Under the pieces are notes generated by a model. It had not been told where the DNA came from. It made no database searches and saw only the letters and a list, made by a program, of their open reading frames with translations. A program made the position numbers and the translations under genes. From Cycloclasticus sp. (GTDB lineage: Bacteria > Pseudomonadota > Gammaproteobacteria > Methylococcales > Cycloclasticaceae), in NCBI GenBank assembly GCA_002700385.1, contig PADC01000008.1, positions 412,485 through 476,484 of the forward strand: a stretch of 64,000 nucleotides of DNA, read 5' to 3'. Position 1 is the stretch's first letter. Every line of letters begins with the position of its first letter. This document shows, in pieces, positions 35,955 through 57,104 of the stretch.

Positions 35955-36910
35955 TATTTAACAGCAAGACCCCAAGGGTAAGGACCCACGCGAACAGATT
36001 TTGTAACCTTTAGATCCGCCAGTTCTATTATTGAAATATCATTACTTACGCCATTGGTTGTATACAGGCGCTGCATATCAGGAGAAAAAGCCAAGTTCCA
36101 CACACGTTGTCCAACCAACAGATACTTGATAACCGACATTGTTTTAATATCCACCACCGCCACCCGATTAGCCGGACCTAATGCAACAAAAAGCATTTCA
36201 TTATTTGGATGAGCCAACACCCCTACCGGTTGAACCAACGCTTTATCAACACCTGCTATTTCAAAAAACATTGTGTCGACAACCTGTTTGCTCGCCACAT
36301 CTAGACGAGACAATGAGCCTGCAATTTCAGAACTCACGAACAGTGACTCACCATCAATAGAAAACTCAGCGGCTCTCGGTCTCGGATCAACCAACGTATT
36401 TGCTTTTACCTTTTGCTCAGCAGGGTCAATCCAATGCACCATATTGGTGGTTTCAGAGGTATTGGCAACCCATTTTCCGTCCCCAGATATCGCTATACCT
36501 TCTGGTTCCACGCCAACCGCTATTTCAGCAATCGCTTTTTGATTACTCAAATCGATGACCGTTACCCGATTACCATCTTCATTAGACACATACAGCCATT
36601 GGCCATTTGGGTGAATCTTAAACAATTCGGGGTCATCACCTGAAGGCAAGGCACCCACTACCTTCAAGGTCTGAGTATCTAAAATCTGAATCGTATCATC
36701 ATCACTTGTTGCGATATATAACAAGGTTTTATCCTTGCCAAACGCGACTCCTCTAGGGCGTTGTCCTACGGGCACAGTATTCAACAACTGACCTGTTTCT
36801 CCATCAACAATCGCAACGGCATTATCCTTTTCCAAGGTAACAAACAACGTGTCGGCACTACCTGTGGTTGATGAAAGAAGCAACGCGATAACTATAAAAT
36901 AATGTTTCAT
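35954..36910 (-). CDS. Periplasmic YVTN beta-propeller protein of the PQQ-associated set
   Basis: A 318-residue protein with a Sec signal peptide (about 1-19, ending GSA) and about seven repeats of the YVTN type (for example LFVTLEKDNAVAIVD, LYIATSDDDTIQILD, LYVSNEDGNRVTVID). This matches the PQQ-dependent-catabolism beta-propeller family (TIGR03866-like). The propeller itself is not a PQQ enzyme: it lacks tryptophan docking motifs. It begins 17 nt after the binding-protein gene. Confidence 0.87.
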   Translation of the reverse strand: MKHYFIVIALLLSSTTGSADTLFVTLEKDNAVAIVDGETGQLLNTVPVGQRPRGVAFGKDKTLLYIATSDDDTIQILDTQTLKVVGALPSGDDPELFKIHPNGQWLYVSNEDGNRVTVIDLSNQKAIAEIAVGVEPEGIAISGDGKWVANTSETTNMVHWIDPAEQKVKANTLVDPRPRAAEFSIDGESLFVSSEIAGSLSRLDVASKQVVDTMFFEIAGVDKALVQPVGVLAHPNNEMLFVALGPANRVAVVDIKTMSVIKYLLVGQRVWNLAFSPDMQRLYTTNGVSNDISIIELADLKVTKSVRVGPYPWGLAVK

Positions 36911-36926
36911 AATTTAGTGAATTTAT

Positions 36927-38108
36927 CTAAAACGTACAGTTCGATTCAGGTTTATCATACCCCAACGTATCCAAATAAGTACGGGGATGTAAAAATTCTT
37001 TATGCGGCAATACCGACACCATTGATCGTGGCGTGGCTAATAAAATCGGCTGACGAAGTTGATGATTCCATTTTCTAAAGGTCAGTTTAACGCCCTTAAA
37101 ACCCGCCAAGCTAAATTGCTCACTCAACAAATAGTCTTTTATCTCGTGTAAGTTTATGCTATTGGTACGTGTGACCGCCTCACCAATCGCTCGTACCGCC
37201 AGCCACGAAGCATAATCCACATCATTCATCCAACGGCCAGCCTGTTTATAGAACCGATTCTGCATTTGAACTGCACCCCATCGCTCATGCGTTCTATGCC
37301 ACGCCCTTGGCACCAGGCCTTGTGTCCCAATAACCGGGCGAGGCAACCAGGTGTTCATCGTCAAATACTCACCAAATAAACCTTTTACATCAGCCACTGC
37401 CAAAACATCGTATTCCATGCCTTGGGTAAAAACAGGAATGTCTTTTTGAGCAGTTCGCCGAGCATCGTGATCAAAATTCCAGGTTTTTTCTTCAACAATT
37501 TTAATGCCGAAACGCTTTGCAGAACGTTTCAACGCTTTAGTGGCCTCATTATCCTCAGCATCCCTTCCTTTAATGAGCAACCAGTCTGTCCACCTTTTTT
37601 TAAGCATCCACTGCGCAAGCGCATCCGCCTTCATTGCTTCACTTGGAATCAGGTGAAATAAGTGACTACTACAACCAGAATTTCTCAGCTCACTGGCCGT
37701 TGAAGAAACGTTAAACAACAAAACATCCTTTTTTTCTGCTTTTGCCGACAAGTTTTTAATCATCGACGTTTGCACATCAACAATCACATATTGATACCCT
37801 TCATTTAAAAGTGCGTCAAACATTCGTTGAACATCACCACCAACCGGTACTTCTACAGTCTTTAATTGATAAGAATGACCGGTAAAAAGCCCTGTTGTGT
37901 TGTTATCCTTCACCCCCAGAACAGCTCCTTGGATACCCTCATCTGTTAAAGCGGGATCAAGGTTTGACAAGGCCGGTTGAACTGGCATGTTTTCTACTAA
38001 AAAGGCTATTTTTATATCCACGTTATTAGCAAAACTCTGGGTCAGAAAAAAGCTCAGAAAAAAGCTCAGCCATAGCTCTTTTTTTCTTTTCATTATTTTT
38101 CTTTTCAT
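36927..38108 (-). CDS. Periplasmic substrate-binding protein of the PQQ-associated ABC set
   Basis: A protein of about 393 residues with a Sec signal peptide and a Leu/Ile/Val-binding-protein-like (type I periplasmic binding) fold; it matches the TIGR03863-like binding-protein family by context. The frame is open to GTG 38132. ATG 38108 is preceded by AGGAG at very short spacing, and ATG 38093 is a second candidate. The leader carries two short in-frame tandem duplications (38043-38066 and 38081-38108). This is the first gene of the four-gene unit, downstream of the candidate RNA at 38251-38341. Confidence 0.85.
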   Translation of the reverse strand: MKRKIMKRKKELWLSFFLSFFLTQSFANNVDIKIAFLVENMPVQPALSNLDPALTDEGIQGAVLGVKDNNTTGLFTGHSYQLKTVEVPVGGDVQRMFDALLNEGYQYVIVDVQTSMIKNLSAKAEKKDVLLFNVSSTASELRNSGCSSHLFHLIPSEAMKADALAQWMLKKRWTDWLLIKGRDAEDNEATKALKRSAKRFGIKIVEEKTWNFDHDARRTAQKDIPVFTQGMEYDVLAVADVKGLFGEYLTMNTWLPRPVIGTQGLVPRAWHRTHERWGAVQMQNRFYKQAGRWMNDVDYASWLAVRAIGEAVTRTNSINLHEIKDYLLSEQFSLAGFKGVKLTFRKWNHQLRQPILLATPRSMVSVLPHKEFLHPRTYLDTLGYDKPESNCTF

Positions 38109-38181
38109 TTCTCCTAGACACCCTCTAATCACTTACGCTTTAACGGCTTTTCACAGCATCACCCGCTGACAAGCAAATATC

Positions 38182-38211
38182 TTAAATCATTTTAGCTTTA
38201 AAATGATTTAA
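38182..38211. promoter_or_regulatory. Perfect 13-bp inverted repeat upstream of the PQQ-associated ABC operon
   Basis: TTAAATCATTTTA (38182-38194) is exactly complementary to 38199-38211, with a 4-nt centre. It lies 74 nt upstream of the binding-protein ATG and 40 nt beyond the terminator of the candidate RNA. It is AT-rich with no T tract, which favours an operator or an mRNA 5'-end hairpin over a terminator. Confidence 0.5.
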
Positions 38212-38250
38212 ACACTGCTTCAAATGTTTTTAGCGTTTAGAATACGAATC

Positions 38251-38276
38251 AAAAAAAAGCGACCCATAAGGGTCGC
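38251..38276 (-). terminator. Rho-independent terminator of the candidate RNA
   Basis: Perfect 7-bp stem GCGACCC/GGGTCGC (plus-strand 38259-38265 and 38270-38276) with a 4-nt loop. Read leftward it is followed by eight T (38258-38251). No protein gene lies on that strand between it and the GDH gene start region, so it has no coding gene to terminate. Confidence 0.88.
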
Positions 38277-38341
38277 CAAGAGGAGGAGAACATTATTACA
38301 TTGAGCAACAAACTGAGAACAGAGCTGCAGTAACAATGTAG
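38251..38341 (-). ncRNA. Candidate small RNA or attenuated leader upstream of the PQQ-associated ABC operon
   Basis: Read leftward, a transcript starting near 38340 would be about 90 nt. It folds as a long stem: 38340-38334 pairs with 38303-38297 (7 bp) and 38328-38324 with 38309-38305 (5 bp including one G-U). An unpaired pyrimidine-rich stretch CUCCUCCUCUUG (38288-38277) complementary to a Shine-Dalgarno sequence follows, and then a terminator. This stem / single-strand / terminator layout is that of trans-acting sRNAs. It could instead be a leader that attenuates the downstream ABC operon. I do not recognise it as a known RNA family. Confidence 0.6.
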
Positions 38342-38346
38342 GTGCC

Positions 38347-38375
38347 ATATTATACTGCTCTGCAACATTTGTCAA
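38347..38375 (-). promoter_or_regulatory. Strong sigma-70 promoter reading leftward into the candidate RNA
   Basis: Perfect -35 TTGACA (38375-38370) and -10 TAATAT (38352-38347) with a 17-nt spacer; an overlapping TATAAT (38354-38349) gives 15 nt. Start of transcription is expected near 38340. It lies back to back with the alpha/beta hydrolase gene (ATG 38461). Confidence 0.78.
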
Positions 38376-38460
38376 CGCTAATTTAACAAAATAATAATAT
38401 AAAATTTAACTCTTTGTAATTTAAAGGGTTTTATAACCTTAAACGCAATAATAAAACATA

Positions 38461-39282
38461 ATGAATATTAAATATTCGGCTGAACACCCTGCCTTAGACG
38501 TCATTGAGCGCCACCCCAAAAAAATCACGCGTAAACCTCTCTTGTTTATTCATGGCGCCAATATGTCAGCTTGGTGCTGGGACGAATACTTCATGCCTTT
38601 TTTCACAAACCTTGGCCACCCTACTTATGCCATCAACCTTCGTGGACATGGGAAAAGCGGTGGGAGTGCTATGCTAGCGACAAACAGCATAGCCGATTAT
38701 GTCCATGACCTTCAGCGAGTGATCGAACGCATTGGCGAACCCCCTATCCTTATTGGCCACTCTTTAGGCGGCTTGATCATTCAAAAATATATTGAAAAAG
38801 AAACCGTTCCCGCCTGTGTGTTGATGGCCACGGTACCTGTTGATGGGCTTATCCCTTCCATCATAGATTTGGCGTTCAACCCCACTTTTTATATGCAAAT
38901 GAATCTGACTGAATTAATGGGCAGCTGGTTTTCACCCATTGACGTTACCCGAAAATCTGTTTTTTCTGGACACGTAGATGACGACGTTGTTATTCGTTAC
39001 TGTGCTGAAATGCAGCAAGGTTCGCCTAAAGCCTTGCTCGATACATTGTGGTTGGGTTTACCCACTCACAAAAACCCTTTTCGTATACCTATGTTAGCGC
39101 TTAGCGCTGATGAGGACACGTTCTTCAGGCCTGCACATATCAGAAAAACAGCCAAGGCTTATAGCGCTGATTACCTCAACATGAAGAAAACGGGGCACAC
39201 AATGATGATCGATGCCCATTGGCGTGAAAGTGCAGAAGCCATCAATAGTTGGTTCGAAAAAAACTCGCCATTTATGAATTGA
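38461..39282 (+). CDS. Alpha/beta-hydrolase
   Basis: A 273-residue cytoplasmic alpha/beta-hydrolase. The catalytic triad is visible: Ser101 in GHSLGG, Asp near 219 (ADEDTFF) and His246 (KTGHTMM). The oxyanion region HGAN lies at 31-34. The family covers esterases, lactonases and C-C bond hydrolases, and no substrate can be named. No clear Shine-Dalgarno precedes the ATG. It is divergent from the candidate RNA and convergent with the GDH gene. Confidence 0.88.
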   Translation: MNIKYSAEHPALDVIERHPKKITRKPLLFIHGANMSAWCWDEYFMPFFTNLGHPTYAINLRGHGKSGGSAMLATNSIADYVHDLQRVIERIGEPPILIGHSLGGLIIQKYIEKETVPACVLMATVPVDGLIPSIIDLAFNPTFYMQMNLTELMGSWFSPIDVTRKSVFSGHVDDDVVIRYCAEMQQGSPKALLDTLWLGLPTHKNPFRIPMLALSADEDTFFRPAHIRKTAKAYSADYLNMKKTGHTMMIDAHWRESAEAINSWFEKNSPFMN

Positions 39283-39293
39283 GGTTGCACAGC

Positions 39294-39322
39294 AAAAGGG
39301 CGTCCACCGTTTGCACCCTTTT
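39294..39322. terminator. Weak bidirectional terminator between hydrolase and GDH genes
   Basis: Arms AAAAGGG (39294-39300) and CCCTTTT (39316-39322) flank a 15-nt loop. T runs of four on either strand are short. It sits between two convergent stop codons and may serve both transcripts. Confidence 0.5.
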
Positions 39323-39348
39323 ATTGCGACCAAAGCTTTCAGTCTGCA

Positions 39349-42300
39349 TTACACTGGCTTCATTTTGCTCTTTTCAACGATCATATGAAGCTCCTTCAAA
39401 ATCACCGATAACTGTTCTATTTCAATTTCATTTTCAGCTTGAATGGTTGAAATTAAATGTAAATAACGGTCAATTTCAGCTCGGTTAGTTGAGCACCAAT
39501 CACTGACCCATTTTGCAGTTGTATCGTGTTTATTAGAATGCAGGAAGATTGCCCTCAATAAAGCCCGATTTTCAGCGTGCAAATCATCGCGTAACGCTGA
39601 CCTTGCGAGTGACTGCCAATAATTTCTACGAGGCAAACGACTGATACAACCATGTAACCAATTAAGCTTCAGCTCTTCACTGACTGCCGAATAGACTGCT
39701 AACACATCTTCTTTACCTCGCTTAACAACACTATTAACCGCAATAATATCAAGCGATAAAAATTCTAGCTCTAGACCCGCCACTTTTTTTGCTAAGTTTT
39801 CGGCAACGCCCGCTTCTTGATAACGAAATGCACGCTGATCCACAGCGTCTTTTACAGTCTGTGACGCATAATCAAGCATTTTTTTCCCTATCAAGCCGAC
39901 ACTATCAGAAAATTCGCTAACAACGGCTTCAATGGACATCATCTGCGATCGATTTCTTTGCAACCAATACATGGTTCGCTCGATGAGTTTTCGTACATCC
40001 ATCAACATATCGACTTGGACATTTGGCGAGACCTGGTTATCCAGCATTTCAATATCGTTCCACAATCCTGCCGTATTGAAAATATCACATGCGATTTTGT
40101 AATTTTTAATCACCTCATCAATAGTTGCACCCGCCTCATCTCGCATTCTAAAAGCAAACGAAGGGCCTAAGCGATTCACCAAGCTATTCACCACTTGATT
40201 AATAACAATTTCATCTCGCAAACGGTGTTCTTCAATGGAAGAAATAAAGGGCTGACTTAAATTTGATGGAAAGTAATCCAATAAGTCTTGTTTAAAAGCC
40301 TTGTCTTGAATAATCAACGAACCATTCAGTAATTCTTTTAACAATAACTTGCTATAAGCAAAAACAACGGCTAATTCAGGGCGATACAACCCCTCTCCTT
40401 TAGCTTTTCGCTCTTCTAATAGTTCCTGATCGGGTAAAAACTCAACAGCGCGATCTAATCGGCCTTCATTTCCCAATTGATTAATCAAACGAGCATGCAC
40501 TTCCAACATATCAGCAGCTTGACTTTCAACCATCGTAATGGCCTGTGTTTGCAAATAATTATTTTTCAGCACCAACTGAGCCACTTTCTCTGTCATTTTT
40601 TCTAACAGAACATTACGTTGCTTAACCGTCATATCTCCCTGCTCAACTAGCTTGTTAAGCAATATTTTGATATTGACTTCGTGATCCGAACAATCTACGC
40701 CTGCTGCATTATCAATGGCATCTGTATTAATACGCCCTTTAACCGCGTATTCAATGCGGCCCAATTGTGTAAAGCCCAGGTTACCGCCTTCCCCTATAAC
40801 TTTGCAGCGCAGTTCATCTGCATTAATCCTTAATGAATCATTAGCGCGATCACCCACATCAGCCTGACTTTCATGCCTTGATTTAACGTACGTTCCTATC
40901 CCACCATTCCACAGCAAATCTACCGGGGCTTTTAACATGGCTTGAATCAGCTCATTGGGTGTTAACATTTGCGCCTTTACATCCAGCACTTTTCTAATTT
41001 GCGGGCTTAGCGTAATAGACTTTTCGGTTCGTGAAAAAACGCCCCCTCCTTTTGAAATTAACGTTTTGTCGTAATCAAGCCAACTTGAACGAGGCAAATT
41101 AAATAAACGCTCACGCTCTTTAAATGATTGCTCTGTCTCAGGGTTAGGGTCTAGAAAAATATGCATATGATTAAAGGCCCCCACAAGGCGAATTTTTTCA
41201 GATAACAACATCCCATTGCCGAAAACATCTCCCCCCATATCTCCGATCCCGATGACATCAAAGGGCGTTTTTTGGGTATCAAGACCTAGCTCTCTAAAGT
41301 GACGCTTCACCGACTCCCAAGCGCCTTTAGCAGTAATGCCCATTTTTTTGTGGTCATAGCCTACCGACCCCCCTGAAGCAAAGGCATCACCCAACCAAAA
41401 ACCATGTTTAACCGCTATGTCATTGGCAATATCAGAAAATGTAGCCGTGCCCTTATCTGCCGCCACAACCAAATAAGGGTCATCAGAGTCATAACGAACC
41501 ACATTTTCTGGCGGCAATACTTTTTCGTCTTTCAGGTTGTCGGTAATCTCAATTAAAGCACCAATAAAAATTCGATAACACGCAACCACTTCGTCCATCA
41601 TCTGCTCACGTGATATACCCTCTAAAGAGCGCTTTACAATAAAACCTCCTTTCGCACCACTCGGGACAATCACGGCATTTTTAGACATTTGCGCTTTCAT
41701 CAGCCCCAAAATTTCTGTTCTAAAGTCCTCCTTTCGATCTGACCAACGTAACCCGCCACGGGCAACTGAGCCACCTCGAAGGTGGACGCCTTCTACACGT
41801 GGCGAATAGACATAAATTTCAAATTTTGGTCTCGGTGAAGGAAGGTCAGTGATGACTTCAGGATTCAGTTTAAATGCAAGGTAAGGCACGCCTTCTTCAT
41901 CAACACTAGATTGATAGTAATTTGTGCGTAATGTTGATTGAATTAAGTTTAAATATCGCCGAAGAATTCTATCTTCATCTAGCGACTCTACTTTTTCAAT
42001 TTCAGCAATAATGTCGGCTTCTAATTGACCGATTTTTGTCGCTTTAGATTTCACCGAGGGATCAAATTTGGTTTCAAATAAGCGCACTAATTGAGCCGCT
42101 ATTTTTGAATTATTTTGTAGCGTCTTTTGAATGTAGTCCTGACTAAACGTTATGCCTGCTTGACGTAAATACAAGTAATAAGCCCGAAGCAGTGTAATTT
42201 GCTTCCAGTCGAGATTCGCTCTGATAACGAGCTGATTAAACCCGTCATTTTCAACTTGCCCTACCCAGACTCGTTCAAAAACTGATTGAAAATTTTCTTT

Positions 42301-56671: not shown

Positions 56672-57028
56672 TTATTTTCTAATTGGTTTACGAGGACCTT
56701 TACGGGTTCGTGCATTTGTTTTTGTACGCTGACCACGGACAGGTAAGCTTCTACGATGGCGAATCCCTCTGAAACAGCCTAAGTCTAGTAGGCGTTTAAT
56801 GTTCATTGAGACTTCACGACGCAAATCGCCTTCTATCAAATATTTCCCAACTTCAGTACGAACAAGCTCCAACTGATCTTCTGAAAGATCGCGCACTTTA
56901 GTAGTCGTAACAATTCCAGCGGCATCACATATGGCTTTAGATCTTGTCAGACCGATGCCATAAATTGAAGTCAATGAAATAACAATGTGCTTATTATCAG
57001 GTATATTAATACCGGCAATACGTGCCAT
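56672..57028 (-). CDS. rpsM: 30S ribosomal protein S13
   Basis: Head protein that contacts the 50S and P-site tRNA, 118 residues, with [14 protein letters not shown] at the start and the helix-hairpin-helix [11 protein letters not shown] near 23; C-terminal [17 protein letters not shown]. First gene of the alpha operon, after rpmJ with a 76-nt gap that could hold the alpha-operon pseudoknot leader, though I cannot verify one. Confidence 0.98.
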
Positions 57029-57104
57029 TAATTCTCTCCGTTAATTTGGCCAGTAGAAAACCGGCAATTTTAATCTTTATTTTGAATAACTACAAGTTAT
57101 AAAA

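Follow-up and report, generated by a model that had tools for sequence, protein, structure and literature searches.

A small-RNA gene of Cycloclasticus with a conserved anti-Shine–Dalgarno seed and a PhaR-type operator match in its promoter

The stretch of Cycloclasticus sp. DNA analyzed here (the window, 64 000 nucleotides) carries a small-RNA gene on its minus strand, at 38340–38251, as decided by comparison of this locus with its relatives. We consider it probable that this gene encodes an independent, likely Hfq-dependent, trans-acting RNA of ∼90 nt with an anti-Shine–Dalgarno (anti-SD) sequence, controlled by PhaR. Sequence evidence establishes the gene and its conservation, and it provides the predicted structure, the operator match and the genes for PhaR, PHA synthase, phasins and Hfq. 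We infer that the RNA is transcribed, that PhaR binds its promoter and in which direction it acts, that Hfq is required and that translation is repressed. According to PMC12542648, PhaR acts as a repressor in the absence of PHB synthesis and becomes sequestered on granules as PHB accumulates. The sigma-70 promoter of the RNA gene would be covered by the operator of a PHB-sensing repressor; in cells without stored PHB the gene would be silenced by free PhaR bound between −35 and −10, and upon formation of PHB granules PhaR would be drawn away, with the RNA being made together with the phasins. Under this established model, the level of the RNA should increase with PHB. The 5′ hairpin and the terminator of the transcript would then present the sequence UUCUCCUCCUCUU in single-stranded form, which may pair with Shine–Dalgarno regions of selected mRNAs and block their translation.

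All elements named in the initial annotation (promoter, start, hairpin, SD-complementary stretch, terminator and eight T) were found on the minus strand, some of them in modified form. A promoter scan gave the −35 hexamer TTGACA (38375–38370) and the −10 hexamer TAATAT (38352–38347), separated by a 17-nt spacer and with an expected start at ∼38340; this promoter had been called perfect, but it matches at 10 of 12 positions. The first five bases of the −35 hexamer, TTGAC, are kept in 15 of 16 sequences of the genus, with TGGAC in the remaining one (L015). At the other end, a terminator scan found the intrinsic terminator hairpin GGCGACCC-UUAU-GGGUCGCU (38277–38258), with a tract of eight U read from the sequence at 38258–38251; the terminator and its eight T were as previously described, but the scan scored eight pairs, one of them G–U, in place of a perfect stem of 7 bp. 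Between the 5′ hairpin and the terminator lies CUCCUCCUCUUGG on the minus strand. An own promoter and an intrinsic terminator with a long U tract, taken as sequence features, are those of a trans-acting Hfq-type small RNA. Within 36000–41000, promoter-like matches numbered 9 against 10.3 ± 3.6 in shuffled sequence and terminator-like matches 3 against 4.6 ± 1.8, neither being above chance, and we therefore dropped the two scans as stand-alone evidence, so that the reality of the RNA gene rests on its conservation. These shuffle-level counts are what would speak for a fortuitous, functionless pairing of promoter and terminator, a notion that is scarcely credible against the conservation across families, with compensatory changes, described below.

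Using a 161-base query, matches were found in 31 of 61 genomes, namely the own genome, 15 of the 17 other Cycloclasticus and 15 of the 43 others of the order; beyond the genus, the alignable part consisted of the seed and the terminator only. Across the 30 sequences aligned, which leave out one genome matched without a locus (G028, the 31st), the core of UUCUCCUCCUCUU plus terminator has 19 invariant columns. From these 30 sequences we built a covariance model of the seed and terminator module (R1), which at E ≤ 1e-3 matched 113 of 301 genomes of the order. Scores of at least 42 bits were found in 47 genomes, 30 of them being the model's own source sequences, and all belonged to f1, f4, f6 or f7. 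An exact pattern scan gave 19 stretches and named carriers of these families, i.e. Cycloclasticus (f1, with one f1 record labelled Methylococcaceae bacterium UBA975), Methylocaldum (f4), Methylothermaceae and Methylohalobius (f6) and Methylococcaceae bacterium UBA2780 (f7). At E ≤ 1e-3, R1 matched one place per genome in 12 of the 17 matching Cycloclasticus, the second places in the others reaching only 25–28 bits. Genomes of f8 gave 25–39 bits, the copies read there carry another seed, and f8 matches were not counted as members of the RNA family. In the class, 33 of 369 genomes matched at E ≤ 1e-3, and outside the order only G501 exceeded 32 bits; weak matches in the order (f8) and in the class were counted as members only where read by eye. 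The Rfam scan of the window and of 20 relatives' loci gave no family at gathering score, the window copy having sub-threshold matches only, in agreement with the earlier statement that no Rfam family could be recognised. No publication on the Cycloclasticus RNA was found in the literature searched, where full text was limited to open-licence articles. The proposal of an undescribed small RNA is thus borne out by a seed and terminator conserved across several families, a 5′ hairpin that is usually kept and the lack of any Rfam match at gathering score.

Two further observations were made in the course of these searches. A MAG labelled Methyloversatilis universalis (L217) has a copy of the RNA that, together with its promoter, closely resembles the Methylocaldum one (L207), possibly as a result of a misbinned contig or of transfer. 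A 15-base pattern gave 65 stretches in viral contigs, which were set aside since so short a query cannot mean homology.

The predicted fold of the 89-nt RNA has an energy of −30.8 kcal/mol (z = −6.6), and none of 200 shuffles was equally stable. Its 5′ hairpin (38339–38290) comprises a conserved outer stem, in which ACAUUGUUAC (38339–38330) pairs with GUAAUAAUGU (38299–38290) through 10 pairs including G–U, and inner stems of 38328–38324 with 38309–38305 and of 38322–38320 with 38315–38313. Of the two-part stem first described, the inner part (38328–38324 with 38309–38305) was confirmed as such, but the outer part (38340–38334 with 38303–38297) is in another register than the conserved stem and constitutes a competing local match, whose 38303–38297 side is not conserved in the alignment (A2). 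The conserved outer stem ends at the start of the C/U-rich stretch, i.e. at the seed UUCUCCUCCUCUU (38290–38278), which is complementary to Shine–Dalgarno sequences, is invariant at 8 of 13 columns across the 30 aligned sequences and, in the predicted fold, is single-stranded beyond the first base, with which the outer stem closes. Among the first 12 seed bases, at least eight were unpaired in the predicted folds of 29 of the 30 members, and six in L022. The SD-complementary stretch previously noted as unpaired thus holds as a seed conserved across several families, and a conserved seed that is single-stranded, as predicted here, is a further trait of trans-acting Hfq-type small RNAs.

With regards to covariation, 98.3% of 288 cells were paired in the outer 5′ stem and terminator of the 16-sequence genus alignment, with both partners changed in three pairs; none of 500 shuffles reached the covariation score, a result that for 16 related sequences is supportive but not proof. 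In the terminator stem, both partners vary among the genus sequences at two of the eight pairs. When a fixed 59-nt 5′ segment was folded for each member, which is a crude test, z was below −1.5 for 15 of the 16 members within the genus and 7 of the 14 from outside it, or 22 of 30 in total, and this value was not reached in the other eight. The 5′ hairpin fails the folding test in those eight members; its retention despite sequence change, as modelled by these folds, appears to be usual and not universal.

The gene neighborhood bears upon whether the RNA could instead be a 5′ leader or attenuator of a PQQ-associated ABC operon, as had been considered. Downstream on the same strand, outside the RNA gene, lies a gene for a PQQ-associated ABC substrate-binding protein (TIGR03863; 36927–38132, minus strand), the start of which is more likely at 38108 than at 38132, while a divergent alpha/beta hydrolase gene (38461–39282, plus strand), likewise outside the RNA gene, lies upstream. 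In a survey covering 1.5 kb on each side of the RNA, the substrate-binding gene, which is the first of the operon, followed the RNA in 14 of 16 Cycloclasticus loci and in both f7 loci, as a leader would have it, but in only 1 of 12 loci of f4 and f6. The other 11 of these loci keep the RNA without it, and so does Cycloclasticus L016, with other genes in its place (L015 ends at a contig edge). Upstream, the divergent hydrolase gene is found in 14 of 16 genus loci, while in 9 of 12 f4/f6 loci the RNA instead follows a gene of one cluster, the two tested members of which are TonB-dependent receptors. A leader would always stand before its operon. Since the neighbors of the RNA differ between families, we regard it as a separate gene, independent of its neighbors as trans-acting Hfq-type small RNAs are, and a role as attenuator or leader of the PQQ-associated ABC operon as very unlikely. 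Two details of the locus may be added, these being that the best NCBIfam match of the divergent hydrolase (38461–39282) is a model for intracellular PHA depolymerase, far below its cut-off (46.6 against 300 bits), and that a long inverted repeat (TTAAATCATTTTAAAGCTAAAATGATTTAA, 38183–38212) was seen by eye in the gap that separates the terminator of the RNA from the ABC gene.

The initial annotation missed a PhaR-type operator inside the promoter, a sequence match that points to the likely controller of the RNA. This PhaR/PhbF-type operator, TGTTGCAGAGCAGTAT, spans 38367–38352 on the minus strand, with TGC at 38364–38362 and GCA at 38358–38356; its center is at about −20 from the predicted start, and it lies between −35 and −10, touching the latter. 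In the consulted part of PMC3206438, a footprint-protected site of PhbF of Herbaspirillum has TG[N]TGC[N]3GCAA, and PhaR of Rhodobacter is described as binding CTGC[N]3GCAG. When compared with these patterns, TGTTGCAGAGCAG keeps both triplets, with the last A changed to G in this species, and several congeners have the exact published PhaR/PhbF consensus (e.g. L002, L004 and L006). The spacer between −35 and −10 usually reads ATG-N-TGC-N3-GCA(A/G)-TAT, and TGC-N3-GCA, with a variable middle triplet, is present in 14 of 16 genus promoters (not in L007 and L014) and in both promoters of f7. It was absent from all 12 of the f4/f6 promoters read, including three from PhaR-bearing genomes (L017, L018 and L020).

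Genomes with PhaR (PF07879) were 18 of 18 in f1, 2 of 2 in f7, 3 of 13 in f4, none of 10 in f6 and none of 12 in f8, and, in smaller families, 1 of 3 in f2, none of 2 in f3 and the only one in f5. The own genome encodes a PhaR protein passing TIGR01848 and also has an hfq gene, as a trans-acting Hfq-type RNA would need, and every one of the 18 f1 genomes has the PHA synthase domain PF07167, the match being of full strength in 17. The motif TGNTGCNNNGCANNAT occurs at 13 sites in the own genome against two for the reversed pattern; three promoters account for four of the 13, i.e. those of the RNA gene and of two phasin genes (Phasin_2, PF09361; L187/L188 and L191), one of which has two sites flanking its −10, and eight overlap open frames. 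The remaining one of the 13 (L182, at C3:280923–280938 of the own genome) lies between an AmoC-like gene (PF04896, particulate monooxygenase subunit C) and a gene read as an antiporter.

It could be argued that the RNA is a trans-acting anti-SD RNA without any control by PhaR, the dyad being a site of some other regulator or an incidental feature of the spacer. The f4/f6 members keep seed and terminator without the dyad, and the three such f4 genomes that possess PhaR argue against a strict link between PhaR and the RNA, so that control by PhaR cannot be a property of the whole RNA family. We nevertheless hold this explanation to be unlikely for Cycloclasticus, since the published consensus is matched, exactly so in several congeners, the operator is placed similarly to that of mmgR (about −20 from the predicted start compared with a calculated −23), the same motif is found at two phasin promoters of the same genome and the dyad recurs in promoters of f7, f173 and f76.

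The nearest precedent for an RNA controlled by PhaR as proposed here is MmgR of Sinorhizobium, which is PhaR-repressed. As described in PMC8401924, PMC7143759 and PMC12542648, MmgR of Sinorhizobium meliloti (alpha-r8, RF00519) is 77 nt long, depends on Hfq and contains an anti-SD motif; its repression by AniA/PhaR is tied to a dyad located between −35 and −10, and MmgR in turn limits both PHB and phasins. Its operator center would be at about −23, as calculated from coordinates in the available parts of PMC12542648 and PMC7143759 if these are numbered alike. The RNA studied here is likewise short, with an anti-SD motif and a PhaR-type dyad between −35 and −10, the dyad being a sequence match only. 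It differs in that its anti-SD stretch lies between the 5′ hairpin and the terminator, whereas that of the alphaproteobacterial MmgR, according to the same partial sources, is in the first loop. The window RNA gave no match to RF00519 at E ≤ 10 and so does not reach its gathering score. In f173, RF00519 was the best match of L334/L340 (28.2 bits, cut-off 41), but an f8 RNA (L160, genome G107) scored alike, also below the cut-off (27.5 bits), and PhaR was found in none of the 12 f8 genomes surveyed, to which G107 does not belong. Homology of these relatives to RF00519 was therefore rejected, and the resemblance in f173 and f8 may be architectural only. In its control, as judged from the operator, the Cycloclasticus RNA would work like MmgR while falling outside that family at gathering score.

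Other small RNAs share single features with it. As described in PMC7143759, AbcR1/AbcR2 (alpha-r15) and NfeR1 (alpha-r14) of rhizobia share C/U-rich anti-SD motifs in unpaired regions and the occurrence of several genomic copies, but they are longer, with three hairpins. Other regulators (LsrB and NtrBC) are named for them in published abstracts, and the Cycloclasticus RNA has no Rfam match at gathering score. NgncR_162/163 of Neisseria gonorrhoeae are, in what was available of PMC9973317, adjacent siblings that obstruct the ribosome-binding sites of metabolic mRNAs. Tandem copies of this kind occur in genomes G501 and G601 and in four f8 genomes, unlike the single place in 12 of 17 matching Cycloclasticus genomes. 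We know of no link of NgncR_162/163 to PhaR. The Betaproteobacteria toxic small RNA (RF02278), which has anti-SD content, is about the same size (64-position model), but the window RNA scored 13.8 bits against its cut-off of 50 and does not belong to that family by score.

Copies of the RNA were also found outside the order. At E ≤ 1e-4, R1 matched 19 of 54 genomes of the order to which genome G501 belongs, these being 17 of 23 in f173 and two others, and 14 of the 17 f173 genomes had matches at two places; 35 of the 36 places were read, with the duplicates L340 and L341 counted once. Sixteen f173 genomes have one copy in which TGC-N3-GCAACA directly follows the −10, then a short leader and CTCTCCTCCTCTTGGCC; the 12 f173 loci that have one common gene neighborhood all hold the dyad. 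A PhaR-type dyad after the −10 was absent from the 15 other f173 copies compared. In G501, one copy has the dyad upstream of the −10 instead, and in G601 (f76) TGATGCAAYGCAAC is found at the −10 of both tandem copies, which read TGATGCAATGCAAC and TGATGCAACGCAAC. In the other f173 copy (L310–L313, L317, L318, L321, L322 and L327–L329) a shared upstream element around GGTCATCCG…GGCTATTCC was seen by eye in place of the dyad, which suggests that the sibling f173 RNA could be under a different regulator.

We tentatively raise the possibility, somewhat less likely than not, that a wiring of PhaR to an anti-SD small RNA is recurrent across Proteobacteria, seen in the alphaproteobacterial MmgR and, in the class of this genome, in an unrecorded family in Cycloclasticus, f7, f173 (with the operator at −10/+1) and f76. 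The f4/f6 members keep the RNA without the operator, and the wiring would thus be gained or lost more easily than the RNA itself; if so, the carbon-storage state may, with the same reserve, have been connected to, or disconnected from, a pre-existing translational repressor on more than one occasion. The findings add a small-RNA family, absent from Rfam 15 at gathering score, in Cycloclasticus and methane oxidisers, together with a direct hypothesis for its control. If true, carbon-storage state would reach translation by a circuit logic of the MmgR type, through an RNA not recognised by the MmgR model, and feedback of the PHB store on catabolism through RNA would become a testable question.

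Potential mRNA targets were approached through complementarity to the seed. In the own genome, AGGAGGAG-N2-9-ATG had one site compared with four for the reversed control, and that single site lies inside a gene. The complement of the 13-mer seed, with up to two mismatches, had 59 sites including the RNA gene, 11 of which are at plausible starts by reading; since the 13-mer reads the same backwards, a reversed pattern is no control here. For 8 of these 11 candidate starts the predicted pairing was −16.3 to −23.5 kcal/mol, stronger in each case than at 60 of the 61 background starts, and for the other three −13.2 to −16.0 kcal/mol, with background start regions at a mean of −8.4 kcal/mol (sd 3.5, n = 61); low energies are expected, because the candidates were picked for seed complementarity. 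The lowest background energy (−23.6 kcal/mol, of the 61) belongs to a site inside a gene read as PHA synthase, and this in-gene position shows that the picking of starts is imperfect. Predicted pairing with the two phasin starts of L191 was moderate (−13.4 and −12.8 kcal/mol), with −14.4 kcal/mol for the start of the ABC gene.

Cycloclasticus is known for degradation of PAH (oil) in marine environments. The seed-matching starts include those of a CoA-transferase (PF01144), a ring-hydroxylating dioxygenase beta subunit (PF00866), a phenol-hydroxylase-like protein (PF02332), a short-chain dehydrogenase and an alpha/beta hydrolase. Together with the energies of 8 of the 11 candidates and the recurrence of the hydrolase site in one other species, this would accord with a catabolite-repression RNA that signals PHB state and represses aromatic catabolism and acetoacetate use, an idea that is not exclusive of the main proposal. 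We think it improbable, as the candidates were selected by complementarity, the same 11 also include a TrpB-like (by reading), a CcoP-like and a cytochrome b561 start, and the site at the CoA-transferase is not conserved. The gene for the latter, the best candidate, is present in 10 of 31 genomes, and among the eight starts read, own included, those of the seven relatives have only a shorter SD-like sequence; it was consequently rejected as a target. Six relatives had 16 sites with at most one mismatch to the seed complement, six of which were the RNA gene itself, the only site present in all six relatives. Three further sites lie before a possible start, one of them (hydrolase) common to the own genome, and a complement site without a nearby start (L224/L297) is also common to it. 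The only start recurring in a second species was thus that of the alpha/beta hydrolase, read as a meta-cleavage hydrolase. We regard repression through the anti-SD seed as likely on the basis of predicted pairing, and name no target as established, since the candidates were chosen by complementarity, the best of them is not conserved and one start recurs in a second species.

Finally, the f8 genomes (L157, L158, L159, L160 and L163–L168) have small-RNA-like genes of another kind, e.g. with CAACTCTTGAGATGC…hairpin…TATATCCTTCTCTTTAGCGGC terminator, which are in tandem in four of the nine genomes read and are preceded by repeated GCGACAATNTGNCAC-like elements. No Rfam family reached its cut-off in the five f8 loci scanned, and judging by sequence these genes look like a second undescribed small-RNA family with its own regulator. 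Elsewhere in the window, at 56996–57079 on the minus strand, a match to the Alpha operon ribosome binding site (RF00140) scored 38.1 bits against a cut-off of 38.
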